Assembly: GCA_015231955.1 (NCBI GenBank)
Contig: JADGAN010000048.1
Location: forward strand, 1 to 35,325
DNA from: Oligoflexia bacterium
Lineage (GTDB): Bacteria > Bdellovibrionota > Bacteriovoracia > Bacteriovoracales > Bacteriovoracaceae
Direction: 5' to 3'
Length of the DNA stretch: 35,325 bases
Under the pieces are notes generated by a model, which was not told the DNA's origin, ran no database searches, and worked only from the letters and a program-made list of their open reading frames with translations. A program made the translations under genes and the position numbers. Positions 24,348 to 35,325 of this stretch are shown here, in pieces. Position 1 is the stretch's first letter; each line of letters opens with the position of its first letter.

Positions 24348-25787
24348 ATGAAATGGCGAGTAAACGCAGGAAGAGTTTGGCAGATAGGGGGGATCGAACG
24401 CCATTTTGCAACTGGAAGCAGCGGCGAAGGCCCAGTTCTCTATTGGATGAGTCGTGAGCAACGGGTTTTTGATAATTGGTCGCTTCTTCACGCCTATGAG
24501 TGTGCAGAACGTGCTAATGTTCCTTTGGTGGTGCTCTTTGTGGTTATTCATAAATTTTTAGAGACTACAAAGAGACAACAGCACTTTATGCTCTACGGTC
24601 TAGTGGAGGTAAGAGAGGCCTTAAAATCTCTTGCTATCGATTTTGTGATGATGAAGTCGGATGATCCAGGGACAACAGTGGGTAATTTTGCCAAGAAAAT
24701 TGATGCTTCTTTGATTGTTACCGATTTTGATCCCCTACGAGTAAAACAGATTTGGCAGAAAAATTTGTTAAAAATTTTTGATGCTCCAGTAGTCTTAGTC
24801 GATGCTCGTAATATCGTTCCCTGTACGCTTGCTTCTTCAAAAGAGGAGTATGCGGCCTATACTATAAGGCCTAAGATTAAAAATCTGCTACCCGATTATT
24901 TAGAGGATTATCCTCCACTTAAAAAGCGTGCGGAGGTGCACTTTTTAGCTCTAAAGTCGAAGGTTAAATTAGAGAGCACCAATGATGTGGTCGCCCTAGT
25001 GGATACACTCGATATTGATCCACAGGTAGAGCTTAAAAGTTGTAACAAATTTAGGGGAGGAACCAAGGCCGCACTAACGGTGCTAGAGAGTTTTATAAAT
25101 GAACGGCTTCCTCGCTATGGAGAAGAGAGAAATAATCCTGTAGCGAGGATGACATCAGAACTCTCTCCTTACCTGCATTTTGGAAATATCTCTTCGCTTA
25201 CGATTTACCATCGGATTCATGCACTAAATGGGCACTTTAAAAAAAAGTATGCAGCATCCATTGAAGCATTCTTAGAAGAGTTAATTATCAGGAGAGAGCT
25301 TGCCGATAACTTTTGTTTTTATAATCGTCATTATGACTCATTAGAGGGCGCGAAGGAGTGGGCGCTTACCACTTTAAACGAACATCGCAAGGATAAGCGA
25401 GAATTTATCTATTCGCAGTCGGAACTTTTGCTCTCCAATACCCATGACCCCCTTTGGAACGCGGCACAGATGCAGTTGGTTCGCAATGGAAAGATGCATG
25501 GGTATTTGCGGATGTACTGGGCAAAGAAGATTTTAGAGTGGAGTGAAACAGCAGAAGAGGCCCTTAAGTGTGCCATCTATTTAAACGATAAATATTCATT
25601 GGATGGACACGATAGCAATGGGTATACGGGGATCTTGTGGGCGATTGCTGGAGTTCACGATCGTGCTTGGAGTGAAAGGCCCATCTTTGGAAAAATCCGC
25701 TATATGAGTTATCAGAGTCAGAGTAAAAAAATCAATGTCGATCGTTATCTTCAGTTGATTTTAGATGAAGGCAAGATGCTCTCTTGA
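24348..25787 (+). CDS. phr: Class II CPD photolyase (deoxyribodipyrimidine photolyase)
   Basis: 479 residues. It uses FAD and light to split UV-induced cyclobutane pyrimidine dimers. The N-terminal antenna-type domain has LYWMSREQRVFDNWSLLHAY. The C-terminal FAD domain has the class II blocks FLEELIIRRELADNFCFYN, NTHDPLWNAAQMQLV, GKMHGYLRMYWAKKILEW, LNDKYSLDGHDSNGY and RPIFGKIRYMSY. The length is normal. The ATG directly abuts the stop of the epimerase gene (TAA-ATG), with AGGAAGGAGAAG upstream. Its last 37 nt overlap the convergent FabZ-like gene. It implies an organism exposed to light. Co-occurrence with an SDR39U1-type gene may be functional, but this is not shown. Confidence 0.94.
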   Translation: MKWRVNAGRVWQIGGIERHFATGSSGEGPVLYWMSREQRVFDNWSLLHAYECAERANVPLVVLFVVIHKFLETTKRQQHFMLYGLVEVREALKSLAIDFVMMKSDDPGTTVGNFAKKIDASLIVTDFDPLRVKQIWQKNLLKIFDAPVVLVDARNIVPCTLASSKEEYAAYTIRPKIKNLLPDYLEDYPPLKKRAEVHFLALKSKVKLESTNDVVALVDTLDIDPQVELKSCNKFRGGTKAALTVLESFINERLPRYGEERNNPVARMTSELSPYLHFGNISSLTIYHRIHALNGHFKKKYAASIEAFLEELIIRRELADNFCFYNRHYDSLEGAKEWALTTLNEHRKDKREFIYSQSELLLSNTHDPLWNAAQMQLVRNGKMHGYLRMYWAKKILEWSETAEEALKCAIYLNDKYSLDGHDSNGYTGILWAIAGVHDRAWSERPIFGKIRYMSYQSQSKKINVDRYLQLILDEGKMLS

Positions 25788-27462: not shown

Positions 27463-30400
27463 ATGAGAAAATTAGCGTTTGTACGCAGCGTGAGTGTTTT
27501 GCTGGTAATTTTCACACTTAGCTTTGCCTGTACTTCAAAAATACCAGAAATGAAAAGTTTGAGTGCTCAACAAAATCCAGAGTTACAATTACTCCAGAAG
27601 CTGGTTGCAAGTGAGAAAAAATCACTAGAAAGTGGCCACAAACCAGAGCGCTTTATTGCTATCTTTTCACCGCAAGAGTTCTTAGAGGCGGAGATGGCGC
27701 TAAGAAAAAATGGGGCCACCATTTTATTTCGTGAGGAGAAGAGTGGTTACTTGCACTTTGAGTCCTTGGCAAGTGATGCACTAAAAGTTCTAGAGCATCA
27801 AGTACCTCAAAGTTTGCTAGTGGATCGTCCCACTCGCTATGAACATTTTAAAATTGCCAAGGAAGATCTTCCCGGTGTGCCTAAATCCAATGGGAATAGA
27901 GGGAGAGTGACACCACCAGTTCCTAAAGATACCTACTCCATTCATATGACAAAATCGGACGCTTTAGTGGAGAGTTTCAAAAGTGAGTATGGAGTAGAAC
28001 TTGATGGTAGTTCTACTACCATTGCTGTTTTTGATACAGGCCTTGATATCACCAGAACCGATGTCTTTCAAGATCGTATTGTAGGTCTTCGTAGTTTACG
28101 AGATAGAGATGTTGCCTATATGACAAAGGCCACAGAGAGTGTGATTGATGGTAAAACCTATTTTACAGGAAGTATCGATGGTATCGCTTTGCGAATTTTA
28201 CGCACGCCTCGTTTGCAGGATGCAGATCGCGACTATTACATTGGATATTTTTCAGAAAAGCAATTTTCCAATTATAACGGCTATGCCAATTACGACTTTA
28301 ATCAAGATAAAAAAGATAGCGGCATCTATACTGTAATTGCCTTTAGAGACGTTGAGGGAGAGTTTGTCGCTTACATCAATGTAAACGATACAGCAACCTA
28401 TGGGGAAGAGCGCGGTGATCGTTCGATAGAGGATGAAAATAAACTGATGGATTTTAATTGGGTGGCCAAACACTATGAGGGAGAAAAGCGCTTTGTGGTC
28501 AACGAAAAAAATCCTATGAAGAGTTATTATCGTTATACGACACGAATGGATTTGTTAAATGCAAGTGGAGCACTGACAAAAGATAGAAACAAAGGGGTGA
28601 TGAATCTTGCGATCAATATGGAGCGTGGACGTGAATTAACTGAGGATGGAAGCGCTTTTAAACTTGTGCGCAAAGAAGAGAGTGGTCAAGAGATTTATAA
28701 GATTGGTATTGTCGGTTTTGATATCAATGGGCATGGAACCTTTTGTGCTGCCATTGCCGCTGGTAACAATGCACTTGCACCGGAGTTAAACCCCGCTACC
28801 ACCAAGGCAAAAATCGTAGGTGTCTCCTTTTTAGGAGGAGGATCTAGGGATGGCGATTTTTTTGATGAAATGCTAAGAACAATTGCTAATTATTCAAACG
28901 TGGTTTTTAGTTTTAGTTTTGGTAGTAGCTTTGAGATCAACGATGTCCAAAGTTCTGGTGCTAAAATTTACGATGCCCTTGCCAGAACCCACTCCGCAGC
29001 GGTGATCAAGGCCGCAGGCAACGATGGACCCTCCTTTAAAAGCATGGGTACAGAGGTTTCGGAAGCGATGATCTCTGTTGCAAACTACCTGGGATCGAAC
29101 TCTAAACGCATCCATAGCGGTGGAAATTTCGAGGAGAATAAGTATTTTATCTCTCCTTCCTCCTCACGAGGACCAACTATGGATGGTGCTTTAAAACCCG
29201 ATATTGGGGCCCCTGGATGGGTATTAGCAGCGATGCCGCTCTCTGCACACTTAGGTGAAGGGGAGACTCGCCATAGCTATCAATATTGGCCAGGAACCTC
29301 GATGGCCACTCCGAATGTGGCAAGTGTGGTTGCACTGCTTTATGATGCTGCTACAAAAGCGGGAATGAGAAAAGCTGACGCTCTCCCCGCAGTTTCTCTT
29401 GATAAGATTCATTTAGCACTAAAAAATGCGGCCCTACCCTACGATAGTGTCGTCTACATAGAGAAAAAAGGCGATGTGGTCAGTGATTACCAAGTCATGA
29501 AGCGTGAAATCTCTTGGCCCGAAGGTGGTGCAGGGAGAGTGAATGCGCTGGGGGCCTGGGAAGTCTTAAAAAAGATTGCAGATGAGGAGCAGGTGAACTT
29601 TTATGTAACCACTACAGCTTCAAAGATTGCCGATTACCCAAGGGCAGAGTCGCGCGGGTACTTTAATATTGATAAAATCGATAACTCTATCGATTTTAGT
29701 GTGAGCTTTGCTTACTCCAAAGAGAACTCTTTTCTCGATACCGATGATCTGGCAAAGCATGAGCGCTTTATTTTAAAAATTCCCAGCGACATTGATTGGC
29801 TCTCCTTCGATCTTTTAAGAGAGCAAAAAGAGCGCTATATCGATGTGTTTGCTAGTGAGCAAACGGCAATCAAACTTTTTGTTCGCACAGAAAAACTTTT
29901 AGAGCATGGCCGTTTAAAGGGTGGCATTCACCATGCCGTGGTCAAAGGATTTAATTTGCGCCATCAAGAGTTTTTTGATTTTGCCTTTCCTGTTACAGTG
30001 CTTGGGTATGATACCAAGTTTGATCCTATCTTGGATAAGAGTCATTTAGAGCGGCAAGGCTTTATCCCTTCTGGTGACTTTGTTCGCTACTTTTTGCCTT
30101 TGTGGAAAAAGGATAACGCTCTTTTACTCGATTTGGATGTATCAGGAGCAACTCCTGGAATGGTTGCTATGGAACTTTATCGCTTCGGTCATGCACTACC
30201 TGAGGGAAAAATTGAGCGTCTCTCCAGATGGGCCATTGGATCTTCTGAATTTGGAGATGGGCGTTCGCACCTTCGTTATATTGTAAGTGATCTTCCAGCA
30301 GGACTTTACGAGGTGGTTTTAACTGCCGATGAAAATAGTCCTTACACCTTTAGTGGTGCCAGTGGATCGTACTTTAATTTTCGCGCAAGTGAGTTTGCAC

Positions 30401-31086
30401 TAGAGGTGGGAGAGATGAGTGTGAGAAGCGATGGCACCTCCACCAGCATTACTCTTCGCGACTGTCGCAATGCTGGTAGTTATCTGCGAATGGCCCATGC
30501 GGAGGTTAATTTTGCAGGAGCAAAATTAAATCGTACAGTACGTGTGCACGATCAAGAGAGTGTGGAGGTTCCCATCCACGTTCCTAATGGGTTTGACGAA
30601 ATCATTATCAACACAAGCTATCTTGGTGGTGAGGAGAAGATGGATATCGATCTCACACTCACCTCAGACGACTCTTCCATCGAGCTTGCCACCTCGGGAG
30701 GGCCTACCGCCACGGAAGAGATTAGAAGTAAAATTGCACCCGGTGAGTATCGCTTAAAGATTTTAGGCTATGCCATTACCAATGCTAGCAAAGAAGCCGA
30801 TTTTACCCTATCGATCAAGCAGCGGATGAAAACAGGGGTGAGCATCTCAAAATCGTTTAAAATCTTGCAACGCCTTGGAGAAGGTGAAACGCGTACTCTT
30901 GGTTACAACTATAGGTGGCCTTCAGGGCACATTTACGATTTAGAGAGTAGCTTTGTAAAGACGCTGGTAAATTTACCAGAAAAATTGCTTACTGGTGCTT
31001 ACACTCCAATCATTGAAGTCGATATTGGCGCTCTCTATGGGACGACGATGCAAGAGCAAGTCTCTCTCTTTAGAAGGGAGTTGTAG
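27463..31086 (+). CDS. Large subtilisin-family (S8) lipoprotein protease with tripeptidyl-peptidase-II-like architecture
   Basis: 1207 residues. A signal peptide ends in the lipobox LSFAC (Cys23), so it is membrane-anchored. Residues about 60-125 look like an inhibitor I9-type prodomain. The catalytic triad is D191 (IAVFDTGLDI), H424 (NGHGTFCAAIAAGN) and S613 (WPGTSMATPNVAS), with oxyanion N520 (AAGNDGPS). The Asp-His distance (233) is far above the 30-60 of ordinary subtilisins. The Asp-His and His-Ser (189) distances resemble those of eukaryotic tripeptidyl peptidase II (about 220 and 185). Insert residues such as GIYTVIAFRDVEGEFVAYIN and NLAINMERG also recall TPP II. A C-terminal beta-rich region of about 550 residues follows. 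It is probably an active exopeptidase or endopeptidase in the periplasm or on the surface. An exported gene follows after 1 nt. Confidence 0.88.
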   Translation: MRKLAFVRSVSVLLVIFTLSFACTSKIPEMKSLSAQQNPELQLLQKLVASEKKSLESGHKPERFIAIFSPQEFLEAEMALRKNGATILFREEKSGYLHFESLASDALKVLEHQVPQSLLVDRPTRYEHFKIAKEDLPGVPKSNGNRGRVTPPVPKDTYSIHMTKSDALVESFKSEYGVELDGSSTTIAVFDTGLDITRTDVFQDRIVGLRSLRDRDVAYMTKATESVIDGKTYFTGSIDGIALRILRTPRLQDADRDYYIGYFSEKQFSNYNGYANYDFNQDKKDSGIYTVIAFRDVEGEFVAYINVNDTATYGEERGDRSIEDENKLMDFNWVAKHYEGEKRFVVNEKNPMKSYYRYTTRMDLLNASGALTKDRNKGVMNLAINMERGRELTEDGSAFKLVRKEESGQEIYKIGIVGFDINGHGTFCAAIAAGNNALAPELNPATTKAKIVGVSFLGGGSRDGDFFDEMLRTIANYSNVVFSFSFGSSFEINDVQSSGAKIYDALARTHSAAVIKAAGNDGPSFKSMGTEVSEAMISVANYLGSNSKRIHSGGNFEENKYFISPSSSRGPTMDGALKPDIGAPGWVLAAMPLSAHLGEGETRHSYQYWPGTSMATPNVASVVALLYDAATKAGMRKADALPAVSLDKIHLALKNAALPYDSVVYIEKKGDVVSDYQVMKREISWPEGGAGRVNALGAWEVLKKIADEEQVNFYVTTTASKIADYPRAESRGYFNIDKIDNSIDFSVSFAYSKENSFLDTDDLAKHERFILKIPSDIDWLSFDLLREQKERYIDVFASEQTAIKLFVRTEKLLEHGRLKGGIHHAVVKGFNLRHQEFFDFAFPVTVLGYDTKFDPILDKSHLERQGFIPSGDFVRYFLPLWKKDNALLLDLDVSGATPGMVAMELYRFGHALPEGKIERLSRWAIGSSEFGDGRSHLRYIVSDLPAGLYEVVLTADENSPYTFSGASGSYFNFRASEFALEVGEMSVRSDGTSTSITLRDCRNAGSYLRMAHAEVNFAGAKLNRTVRVHDQESVEVPIHVPNGFDEIIINTSYLGGEEKMDIDLTLTSDDSSIELATSGGPTATEEIRSKIAPGEYRLKILGYAITNASKEADFTLSIKQRMKTGVSISKSFKILQRLGEGETRTLGYNYRWPSGHIYDLESSFVKTLVNLPEKLLTGAYTPIIEVDIGALYGTTMQEQVSLFRREL

Positions 31087-31087
31087 T

Positions 31088-31939
31088 ATGAAAAGAGGTT
31101 CGATCGTGGCCACTGCGCTCTTATTGATGAGTTCTATGAGTGCGAGTGCGCTTACCAGCACAGAAAATTACTATTGTAACATCAACACACTTCCAGAAAA
31201 GAGTGCAGTGGCCACTTCGAAGCTTCATGAGTTTGCCAAACCCTTTATTTTTGAAAAGGATGGAGTAAAGAGCAAGTTTAAAGAGGTTGAACTCTTTATG
31301 TGGAATCAAAATCAAAAGTTAAATCTGAAGATTAAAGATGCCACTCGTAAGTTAGAGATCAACACCCACTACCCAGCAGCTACTCCTGAAATTGTCTTAA
31401 AGTGGAACGAGTTTAAATTGCAATGCCTAACTCAAACAAAATGGGAAGAGCTTGCAGACGAAGGAGAGAAGTTGCTCTTCCCCGTTCCACTCACCGACGA
31501 TAGCAACCTTATCCACTACAAAACACGCATGAGCATCTTGTTGCTTGCTGATATCGCCGTTAAGTATGTCGAAGGGGATACAGAACGCGATAAGATGAAA
31601 GAGGTTTTCTTTCAGCGTGGGCAAATTGTCGCCAAAACAGATAACAACAGTGATTGGTGTCTTTTCCAGCTACAAAGAAAGTTTGACCAGGACCTCGTGA
31701 TCGAACAAGCAACAGAGATTCCTGTACTCTCTGTCTCCACGTACAACAACAGCAACAACTTCTTTGTCATAAACTACAACTTTATTGACTTAAACAAAGC
31801 AACTAAAGGTTTTGAGACCTCTGAGTGGGCGGCCTTTATGCTTAAATGCAAGATCTCCACGATGCGAACACTGACCTACAAACTTTTTAAAGAGATCACC
31901 GGCAACCGCTTTGTACTTAACATTCAACCTCTAAAATAA
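31088..31939 (+). CDS. Exported protein of unknown function, coupled to the subtilisin gene
   Basis: 283 residues. ATG 31088 is chosen because GGGAG sits just upstream and a clear signal peptide follows (MKRGSIVATALLLMSSMSASA, cleavage about residue 21). Frames starting at 30995 run through the protease gene and lose this. The mature part is mixed alpha/beta, with four cysteines (in NYYCN, KLQCL, DWCLF and MLKCK), suggesting one or two disulfides. No family is recognised. A 1-nt gap to the protease gene implies co-translation. A chaperone, inhibitor or cofactor role for the protease is possible but unproven. The 3' end overlaps the convergent gene by 16 nt. Confidence 0.8.
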   Translation: MKRGSIVATALLLMSSMSASALTSTENYYCNINTLPEKSAVATSKLHEFAKPFIFEKDGVKSKFKEVELFMWNQNQKLNLKIKDATRKLEINTHYPAATPEIVLKWNEFKLQCLTQTKWEELADEGEKLLFPVPLTDDSNLIHYKTRMSILLLADIAVKYVEGDTERDKMKEVFFQRGQIVAKTDNNSDWCLFQLQRKFDQDLVIEQATEIPVLSVSTYNNSNNFFVINYNFIDLNKATKGFETSEWAAFMLKCKISTMRTLTYKLFKEITGNRFVLNIQPLK

Positions 31940-34878
31940 AAAGCACGAATCTGATCGAGGGTGGGAGTGGTCTCTGTTTTTAATAATCTTTTAAAATAGT
32001 CTGCCCAGTGCTTGGTGCTGAGGATAAAGGACTCAATATCCCAAGGGTTGCAGGTGATTTCTCCATCCAAGAGAGTATTTTTTTGTTTGATCATTTGTTC
32101 AACAAATTCTGGATGATCCTTCCAATGCTCTTTCGAGAGCACGTGAGAGATGATCTCTCTATAGTTTACTTTTTTTGCTTGGATGATCTTTTGAGGCCAT
32201 TCAGGGTGATCTTTCCACTTAGCTTGGGAAAGAACGTGGCGAACAAGGAAAGCATGTTCATATTCCCCTCCAATCTCCAATAGCTGTTCTATCCATGGAA
32301 TAAGCTGTGGATCATCTTGCCACTTAGGATTAGCAAAAATGGTGCTTCCAATAGAGTGACTGGCCTGATGGTTTTTGATGAGACTCCATACCCACTCACC
32401 CCACTTCGGATGACCTTTCCAGCGCGGATTGGATAAAATAGAGTTAACCAGTTCACTACTCAGCTCATAATTGTTTTTTAGAGACAAGAGTAATTGCTCG
32501 ATCCAATGATCGTACTCTGGGTGTTTTTGCCAGTAATCTTGGGTGAGCACACTCCTGATGAGATCTTTTGAAGCTTCTTTTTGCAGTAACATCTCACTAA
32601 TTAATGCTTCTGCATCTGGACGCTTTTGCGCAAAGGTAGTGGCCAAGAAGTAGTGTGTGAAACCCTCATCGTTTAAGGTGGATCTCACTTTGGAAATATC
32701 TTTATTCAAACACTCTTTGGCCTCCTCTAAAGGGATGCCTTTGCTTTGAAAAATCTCCAAATCAAAAAGAGTCTCTAGATCCTTTAGTTGCGCTATTAAT
32801 TCTAGCGGATCACTTCTCCATTCTAAGTGATGGCAAAATTTCATCAGCTGGTGTTTAAAACTCTCGTTACTTAGGATGGAAGTGAACTGCTCCGAAGTTC
32901 CTTTGAGGATGGAGGATAGATCTGCAAATTTTTTATTTTTAAACAGTTTCAAAAAGAGATGAGTACTCTCTTTGGCATAAACATCGCTCATCGCATCTGT
33001 AGCACGAAGCTGTCCCTCTTCAAAGAGTTCTGGACGGCGTTTTAAAGCATCTTGCAGCTGTAGTCCAAGCGGAGAAAGCAGTTTTCCTACTCTATCTAAG
33101 TAGACACCCATTGCAGATCGCTCCTTATTTTGTAAAATACGATTAACTTTTGCTGCCATCTCTAGAGTAAAGGGAGCAAATTCGCCAAGCATTTGCTTGG
33201 CGGTTCCACTATTATTGGTACGCAGGAAATCGAGCGCTAAAAGAAAGCGATCCAGTTGATCTCCTCGATCATTTGCTTGAAAAGGGGGTAAGCTTGTGGG
33301 TTTGATTTCTATGGAATAGAGGGAGGAGTGGAGTGGTCTTGGAACAACTCCGGCAATCTTATTAAACGCGGTGAGGTCGTAACTTTGTGTGGAGAGGCGA
33401 TCTAAATAGTGATCTCTTAGAGGAGAATCAATGTAGGATGTTGCTTTAAGTGGAAGATCTTTAGCGTAAGTCCTAAAGACCTCTAAGATTGCTGGAGAGT
33501 TGATCAACAGAATAAGATGACTAGGGTCAGGCAGTGCCAATTGCTTGGCCGGGAGCAGAGGATGAGTTGCTGCTTTCGAGTGCAGGAGTTCATTTAACCC
33601 TTCAAAGACACTTTGTGTATCCTCTGGAGAAATATGCATGCCGGCAATGGTGTGCAAGTAAAAGGAGGGTGTTCCTTCAATGGTAAGAATTGTTCCCGCC
33701 ACATAACCCTTGACCCTCCCTTTTGCATCTTCCAAGAAGAAAACACGTTCCATCGGACTGTTGGCATACATTCCCGATTTTCCACTCGAGCAATCGTTAC
33801 CCACAAAACCACGAAATAGGGCCACAGCGGGTGGAACCTCTTTCAGGATCAATTGTTTGCCAGAAACACTCTCCACTGTTTCAGTTTTTTTAGGAATAAG
33901 CTCACTATATTTTTTTTGGAGTCGTGAGGAGAGGTTAAATTTTTTGAAGACACCATAGGAGTTAGTAAGCTCTTTTAAAAGTTCACGATCATTAAATGCA
34001 CTTAAATGCGACTCATTGACATAATCGAGAGCAGGCAGAAGTTCATCGGCATCGGCATCAGCAAACTCCTTGAAGATGATTTTCAAAGCAAATAATTGCT
34101 CTAATATTTTTAGTGCATCAACACTTTGCTTGAGAGTATGGATGAGTTGAGACTCATCACTTTTTTTAAATCCTTGGTTTGCTAAAGAAAAACCAGGGAA
34201 AACCTCTTGGAATGAGCGGCCGGCCAGTAACTCCTCATCAAGAATACGGATACGCTCTTCTAAAGGAAAACGCATCACTTGTGAAAATGCTTGTGGATCT
34301 TTTTGATAGCGAGGGTGCCGCTTTAATAGATTTCCCCACCAATTTCCCTCTGGATCTCCACTGATTTTTGCGGATGCCGTAGCGATCATGGTATCAAAAT
34401 AGCTATCTAAGTTTTGAGCGGAAAGGGGAGGGTGGTTTTGCAAAAATTGTTTTAAGTCATCTTTACGCTCTTTAAAAAGAACTGGATCTACTTTGCTGAT
34501 CTCTTGATGGATAGTTGCGACTTTCTTTAAATAAATCGAAGAAAGTTGCTGAGCATCTCCTCTCTCAGCAGCGAGTTTTTTGTACAAATCATCTTTAGTT
34601 AGCTTATCGAGCAAATTATTTTGCTGTTCGAGCAGTTGTAAGAGATTAACGTTGTAAGTGGTGGCCTCACTAAAGAGATTGGGTATCTCTTTTCTTAAAT
34701 AGAAGAGAAAAGATATTTTATCATCATCACTTGCTAAGGTAGGAGCAAAAGCAGTGGTAGCATACCCTGTCCGCGAAGATAGTGACAGTAATAGTAATAA
34801 AAAAAAAGAGAATAAAAATAAAATTTCATAAACTTGAGCTTTTGGCAAAACAGCAGATGCTAATGGCGTATGTCTCAT
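31924..34878 (-). CDS. Very large exported protein with C-terminal W-x2-H-P repeats
   Basis: 984 residues. ATG 34878 is preferred: AAGGTGG lies 8 nt upstream and the protein then opens with a signal-like segment, VYEILFLFSFFLLLLLSLSS. A further in-frame ATG at 34917 would bury it. Residues about 350-440 (FRGFVGNDCSSGKSGMYANS, RVKGYVAGTILTIEG, FYLHTIAGMHI) resemble a GNAT-like or conserved domain of large Bdellovibrio proteins. Residues about 772-960 contain six diverged repeats of 31-39 residues with the core LSxxxWKDHPEW (the last is LSTKHWADYF). No catalytic motif is certain. It is likely periplasmic or surface-exposed. Upstream (34879-34990) is AT rich and should hold its promoter. Confidence 0.78.
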   Translation of the reverse strand: MRHTPLASAVLPKAQVYEILFLFSFFLLLLLSLSSRTGYATTAFAPTLASDDDKISFLFYLRKEIPNLFSEATTYNVNLLQLLEQQNNLLDKLTKDDLYKKLAAERGDAQQLSSIYLKKVATIHQEISKVDPVLFKERKDDLKQFLQNHPPLSAQNLDSYFDTMIATASAKISGDPEGNWWGNLLKRHPRYQKDPQAFSQVMRFPLEERIRILDEELLAGRSFQEVFPGFSLANQGFKKSDESQLIHTLKQSVDALKILEQLFALKIIFKEFADADADELLPALDYVNESHLSAFNDRELLKELTNSYGVFKKFNLSSRLQKKYSELIPKKTETVESVSGKQLILKEVPPAVALFRGFVGNDCSSGKSGMYANSPMERVFFLEDAKGRVKGYVAGTILTIEGTPSFYLHTIAGMHISPEDTQSVFEGLNELLHSKAATHPLLPAKQLALPDPSHLILLINSPAILEVFRTYAKDLPLKATSYIDSPLRDHYLDRLSTQSYDLTAFNKIAGVVPRPLHSSLYSIEIKPTSLPPFQANDRGDQLDRFLLALDFLRTNNSGTAKQMLGEFAPFTLEMAAKVNRILQNKERSAMGVYLDRVGKLLSPLGLQLQDALKRRPELFEEGQLRATDAMSDVYAKESTHLFLKLFKNKKFADLSSILKGTSEQFTSILSNESFKHQLMKFCHHLEWRSDPLELIAQLKDLETLFDLEIFQSKGIPLEEAKECLNKDISKVRSTLNDEGFTHYFLATTFAQKRPDAEALISEMLLQKEASKDLIRSVLTQDYWQKHPEYDHWIEQLLLSLKNNYELSSELVNSILSNPRWKGHPKWGEWVWSLIKNHQASHSIGSTIFANPKWQDDPQLIPWIEQLLEIGGEYEHAFLVRHVLSQAKWKDHPEWPQKIIQAKKVNYREIISHVLSKEHWKDHPEFVEQMIKQKNTLLDGEITCNPWDIESFILSTKHWADYFKRLLKTETTPTLDQIRAFYFRG

Positions 34879-35325
34879 AAGTATATCCACCTTCTGGTAA
34901 TCATCATTAATGCACAAGTAGAATGATAATAATAAGAATAAAAATCAAAAAGTGATTTTCCTGTAAATAGAACAACTATTCTTGAATTTCCACTAATTAA
35001 CCAGAGAGAAATTTAGTTACAAACGAATACATGCCACAAGCAAATGGACAAAAAACTTGGCACATCAATAAAAAATATTGTAACCTTTGCCTAAAAAATG
35101 AATCCCTCGTTTCTCAAGATGCTGGAATAGAGCTAAAGGAATTTTATTGTCGAAAATAGTATAGGTAGTGTCCTAGTTATGCAATTAAAAGAATGTTAGT
35201 AACTGCTCATACCCTTCAACCATCTGCCCTATATCAGCTGTTGACAGCGGCATAAGCTAACAGCATCCTGTTGAAGGCAGAGGGAGTTATTGGACTATGC
35301 CCAGATTTAAAGAGAATAGCTCTCT
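34879..35325. other. Right-edge gap with no complete gene
   Basis: No intact gene is seen here. AT-rich DNA to about 35160 is followed by a less AT-rich stretch with two short dyads: GCTGT/ACAGC at about 35240 and AACAG-CATC-CTGTT at about 35259-35272. A ribosome-binding-like AGAGGGAG then precedes an ATG at 35297, whose frame (MPRFKENSS) is open to the window end. This may be the start of a gene, possibly mobile, that continues outside, but nine codons cannot decide it. Confidence 0.3.

Follow-up and report, generated by a model that had tools for sequence, protein, structure and literature searches.

The window analysed here, a stretch of 35,325 nucleotides from Oligoflexia bacterium, a relative of predatory bacteria, contains a complete open reading frame at 27463-31086 on the forward strand, which runs from an ATG to a TAG and encodes a protein of 1207 amino acids. 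The only Pfam family above cut-off in this protein is Peptidase_S8 (6.6e-27, residues 184-632). Together with the structural models and the alignments described below, this match delineates the following features, all on the forward strand and listed by their position in the window:

27463..31086, +: complete gene for a 1207-aa exported, TPP II-related subtilase (ORF, Pfam S8, six full-length relatives)
27463..27531, +: export signal with lipobox LSFAC, Cys23 being the likely lipidated residue (PROSITE lipoprotein pattern)
27646..27822, +: I9-like prodomain fold, residues about 62-120 (full-length model, mostly pLDDT 70-83)
28012..29577, +: catalytic domain of subtilisin fold, split by the Asp-His insert (Pfam; model pLDDT 85.9, pTM 0.90)
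28033..28035, +: catalytic Asp191 (invariant in the family)
28045..28716, +: beta-rich Asp-His insert, residues 195-418 (model; profile homology to bacterial inserts)
28294..28320, +: DxNxD motif in the insert, with D278/N280/Q281/D282 invariant (alignment)
28732..28734, +: catalytic His424 (invariant in the family)
28939..28944, +: invariant Asn493-Asp494 after the SxG substrate strand (alignments)
29020..29022, +: oxyanion Asn520 (invariant in the family)
29299..29301, +: catalytic Ser613 (invariant in the family)
29605..30012, +: Ig-like domain, residues about 715-850, homologous to the first Ig-like domain of TPP II (hhalign)
30034..31083, +: all-beta C-terminal region, residues about 858-1207 (models)

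The six full-length relatives all come from the window's own family and share 39-46% identity with the window protein. Counting the window's own genome, proteins of this kind occur in 7/129 genomes of that family, distributed over six genera, and no full-length protein was found outside these seven genomes in a 369-genome sample of the phylum. The protease is a single-copy gene: apart from it, the genome yields just a 505-aa ordinary subtilase (1.7e-5). A single-protein scan of the genome_contigs collection returned no relatives. The gene also stands alone—in a search for an operon partner, 0/6 neighbouring window genes tested occurred near the six relatives. A 283-aa secreted protein (31088-31939, forward strand) starts at ATG 31088, two bases past the protease stop; it has no Pfam match and is missing from the flanks of the six relatives. 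On the reverse strand, positions 31924-34917 encode a predicted secreted protein of 997 aa, in which a W-K-x-H-P-E/K-W-like motif recurs several times towards the C-terminus and for which Pfam gives no significant match. Upstream of the protease lies a photolyase-like protein (24348-25787, forward strand), in which Pfam recognises the N-terminal photolyase domain only. In three relatives (L033, L034 and L035), a small divergent lipoprotein-like ORF with an ERYR/EKYR stretch adjoins the protease just upstream; none was seen at the corresponding place in the window.

The initial annotation had described the protein as exported with a lipoprotein signal, and this description holds: the export signal and lipobox match the PROSITE lipoprotein pattern in the window protein and in 4/6 relatives (5/7 overall), with lipidation itself being likely at Cys23. 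Since one of the two remaining relatives is a near miss to the pattern and the other has no Cys, lipidation is not universal among the relatives. Downstream of the signal, the full-length model (built from seven sequences) displays the ferredoxin-like order beta-alpha-beta-beta-alpha-beta at residues about 62-120. The I9-like prodomain proposed earlier is thus backed by the modelled fold order, but not by Pfam, as no I9 match was obtained in the protein or its family.

The full-length model reached a pLDDT of 55.9 and was poor in the catalytic part, and residues 140-880 were therefore modelled from a 39-sequence alignment, which yielded a pLDDT of 85.9 and a pTM of 0.90. This second model shows a subtilisin fold with a beta-rich Asp-His insert, followed by a beta sandwich. 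Asp191, His424, Ser613 and Asn520 are kept in all six full-length relatives in the alignment. The Asp191-His424-Ser613 spacing given by the initial annotation (233 and 189 residues) is exact, and it lies close to that of Drosophila TPP II, where D44/H272/S462 are separated by 228 and 190 residues; the Asp-to-His distance of 233 residues, as compared with 228, accommodates an insert of about 200 residues in both proteins. Other large bacterial subtilases have spacings of 150-219 and 180-201, so that triad spacing alone is weak and not diagnostic, and we rejected it as evidence of TPP II membership. Considered separately, the catalytic part most resembles ordinary S8A enzymes: the best structural matches of its model are Tk-SP (VIA Z 37.5) and KP-43 (Z 37.2), while TPP II does not appear in the best 50 matches listed. 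With the family profile alone, TPP II and Tk-SP obtain equal scores, 80.6 and 80.3 bits. Tk-SP and KP-43 are extracellular S8A proteases with beta tails, and Tk-SP has a PPC/GOLD-like jelly roll resembling that of the window protein; unlike the latter, both enzymes are devoid of the long Asp-His insert and of the TPP II Ig-like domain.

The beta-rich insert between Asp and His, which had been recognised earlier from the sequence, is present and confidently modelled, with pLDDT mostly above 84. It is homologous to the inserts of other bacterial large subtilases (pooled E 7.6e-5, against 0.0097 for the best of 60 shuffles), with E-values of 4e-4 to 2e-3 against three separate bacterial groups and 4.4e-4 to one family, and the window-family insert and these other inserts share a D-N-(D/N)-G motif. 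The DxNxD loop in the insert is possibly metal-binding. Homology to the eukaryotic TPP II insert is suggestive: against the Drosophila insert, the E-value was 0.42 with the family alone (not significant) and 0.0024 with pooled bacterial inserts, and the eukaryotic insert is spanned by both the profile and the structure alignments with the window family. A search of the PDB with the insert-only profile gave nothing relevant and no TPP II match.

What distinguishes TPP II from the ordinary enzymes in these comparisons is the domains beyond the core. In Drosophila TPP II, the first Ig-like domain aligns with residues 715-850 at an hhalign E-value of 4.6e-6, which improved to 1.4e-6 once a bacterial TPP II relative was added; the best of 100 column shuffles gave 0.027. 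The window's family fails to reach the threshold of Pfam PF21223 for this first Ig-like domain, and none of the Pfam TPPII domains was detected in the family at E up to 1; PF12580 matched nowhere, even in the controls, so that its absence carries no information. Further downstream, residues 1018-1122 adopt a PPC/GOLD-like jelly-roll fold in the model, the full-length model ends in beta strands, and the profile of the C-terminal region found no sequence match in the PDB. At the level of the entire protein, the best PDB match of the low-confidence full-length model is Drosophila TPP II (Foldseek 1.3e-19, 1203 columns), the runner-up reaching 1e-7. The VIA alignment of this model with TPP II covers 593 residues (Z 13.9) and spans TPP II residues 75-1019; its rmsd is large, since the full-length model does not place the domains reliably relative to one another. 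A profile of 39 related proteins aligns residues 29-661 of Drosophila TPP II in one stretch (E 5.1e-66), whereas against the ordinary subtilases among the matches listed the match splits in two around the insert. In a catalytic-core tree, the insert-bearing proteins and TPP II fall on one side with support of 80/95, with long branches and few named references; the branch shared with TPP II is only moderately supported.

Taken together, these comparisons leave the TPP II relationship proposed by the initial annotation standing in part. The homology of the Ig-like domain and the match of the full-length model argue for it, while the catalytic part is closest to ordinary S8A enzymes; similarly, the suggested structure comparison with Drosophila TPP II ranked that protein first in the PDB for the full-length model, but not for the catalytic part. 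The contrary outcome envisaged at the time—best matches in ordinary S8A proteases, an unrelated insertion and no TPP II-type domains further on—was found only by half, because the core is S8A-like while the Ig-like domain shares ancestry with the one in TPP II; the insert, in turn, is common to TPP II-like bacterial subtilases.

Such bacterial subtilases occur within the same phylum. One of them, L029, matches both Pfam TPPII_Ig-like-1 (3.2e-13) and Drosophila TPP II (1.3e-54), and L113 is 48% identical to it; the two proteins are 978-986 aa long and have lipobox-like signals (read directly from the sequences). PF21223 was found in one genome only among the 369 genomes of the phylum, and not in the window's. 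L029 and L113 resemble the window protein in their lipoprotein-like signals, Asp-His insert, Ig-like domain and lack of a double Glu, and differ from it in being much closer to TPP II in sequence and in their shorter Asp-His distance (150 residues in L029). A second set, comprising L015-L028 and Streptomyces WP_266993735.1, shares with the window protein an Asp-His insert with D-N-(D/N)-G and an SxGG...ND motif, but has about 20-23% identity to it across the catalytic region and other C-terminal sequences. L015-L028 are lipoprotein-like subtilases of about 1200-1300 aa with the Asp-His insert and an SLGG...ND motif; they occur in numerous genomes of a different family of the phylum and in one of the window's family (L018). 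TPP II is likewise the best PDB hit (5.9e-29) of a protein encoded on a Streptomyces plasmid. The Asp-His insert is further found in large subtilases of Gemmatimonadota (L096, L101, L104, L107, L109 and L110), which have the unusual motifs IDMFPD, RHGTLV and GTSTA, and in which THNFP replaces the AGN oxyanion motif.

The window protein has the S8 triad and oxyanion Asn of TPP II (MEROPS S08.090; Drosophila 3lxu) at near-equal spacings, a long Asp-His insert, a homologous Ig-like domain after the catalytic part and further beta domains in the same order. It differs from TPP II in having a lipobox and a prodomain fold, and in lacking the double Glu, the C-terminal helical region and any Pfam TPPII domain at threshold. 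In TPP II, the double Glu binds the free N-terminus of the substrate and sets the tripeptide exopeptidase activity; in the Drosophila enzyme, we take E312 and E343 to be this motif. It is not conserved in the window family, where positions 312/343 align to a gap and to Ser/Gly/Asn/Thr/Arg, and it is missing in all 29 insert-bearing bacterial proteins aligned and in the TPP II-like relative L113 (read directly). TPP II continues after its beta domains with a C-terminal helical region, which is not in the model of the 1207-aa protein, the structural match stopping at TPP II residue 1019. TPP II resides in the cytosol and forms assemblies larger than 5 MDa (PMC2933905), whereas the window protein begins with a signal carrying a lipobox, in line with the earlier statement that, unlike TPP II, it is exported and has an I9-like prodomain. 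The known S8 members are endopeptidases except for TPP II according to one survey, with tripeptidyl peptidase S (TPPS) of Streptomyces as a further exopeptidase (PMC9549277), and we found no paper on the double-Glu motif or on bacterial TPP II in the open-access literature. The suggestion that the protein trims peptides as an exopeptidase is not supported, in view of the missing double Glu, the missing helical region and the export of the protein. Because both Glu residues and the helical C-terminal region are missing, an endopeptidase is the most likely assignment, and the window subtilase is probably not a tripeptidyl peptidase and should not be filed as tripeptidyl peptidase II.

These data are best read as describing a member of S8A that is distantly related to TPP II, exported and mostly lipid-anchored. 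In functional terms, we consider it probable that the protein is an exported S8A subtilase of the pyrolysin/TPP II branch, likely anchored in the outer membrane and most likely acting as an endopeptidase. Following Sec export, the protein would be lipidated at Cys23, the residue marked by the lipobox motif, and the I9-like prodomain seen in the model would assist folding before being removed by cleavage. The mature Asp-His-Ser enzyme would then present its long Asp-His insert and Ig-like domain positioned as in TPP II, as the model indicates, and the further beta domains of the modelled architecture could serve as a spacer or a substrate-binding surface. Such an endopeptidase would cut proteins at the cell surface, in digested prey or in detritus, and would not form a giant tripeptide-releasing complex. 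A predatory role would be plausible, because the genome of Bdellovibrio bacteriovorus carries many proteases (PMC7174725).

The enzyme might instead be dedicated to processing a particular cell-surface partner and not be a general nutritional protease—a possibility that we regard as doubtful. Some S8 enzymes with long beta tails do cut chosen substrates, and a single, stand-alone copy with full-length relatives within one family only would fit such a task; however, no gene neighbour is conserved in the six relatives, and the presence of the protease is patchy (7/129 genomes). A further reading, which we find unlikely, is that of an ordinary large S8A lipoprotein protease that gained its insert and beta domains independently, with its TPP II likeness reflecting convergent beta-sandwich add-ons. 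This would agree with ordinary subtilases being the best structural matches of the catalytic part, with the insert alone having no sequence match to the TPP II insert and with the C-terminal domains having none in the PDB, but not with a homology of the Ig-like domain far above shuffles, a fold comparison over the whole length that favours TPP II by twelve orders over the next match, or the existence of a bacterial intermediate with Pfam TPPII_Ig-like-1.

Asn493-Asp494 is common to other insert-bearing bacterial subtilases and lies near the place of TPP II Glu343, which is itself not conserved. TPPS of Streptomyces is an exported enzyme. It is quite improbable that the window protein is a true tripeptidyl peptidase releasing tripeptides at the surface, in which other acidic residues (e.g., the invariant Asp494) hold the free N-terminus: the position of the insert, the Ig-like domain and the overall order are TPP II-like, an invariant Asn-Asp lies a few residues past the Glu343 position and TPPS sets a precedent for an S8 tripeptidyl peptidase (PMC9549277), but neither TPP II Glu is conserved in the window family or the closer bacterial TPP II relatives, and the Asn-Asp pair is unspecific, since many related subtilases carry it.

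The preferred assignment, an exported TPP II relative acting as an endopeptidase, could be extended into an evolutionary proposal, which we put forward as a long shot. The window protein and its relatives would form a bacterial, exported branch that is sister to TPP II and retains an ancestral plan of prodomain, catalytic domain, insert, Ig-like and further beta domains that predates the cytosolic enzyme with its double Glu and helical scaffold; this branch may hold the N-terminus of peptides from prey digests in a different manner. What is known of TPP II mostly concerns a giant enzyme in the cytosol of eukaryotes. Relatives exported by bacteria, sharing a large part of its beta-domain plan but neither the residues that set tripeptide release nor the helical scaffold, would reveal which parts of TPP II are old and which were added, and they would offer simpler proteins for probing the role of the insert and the Ig-like domain.
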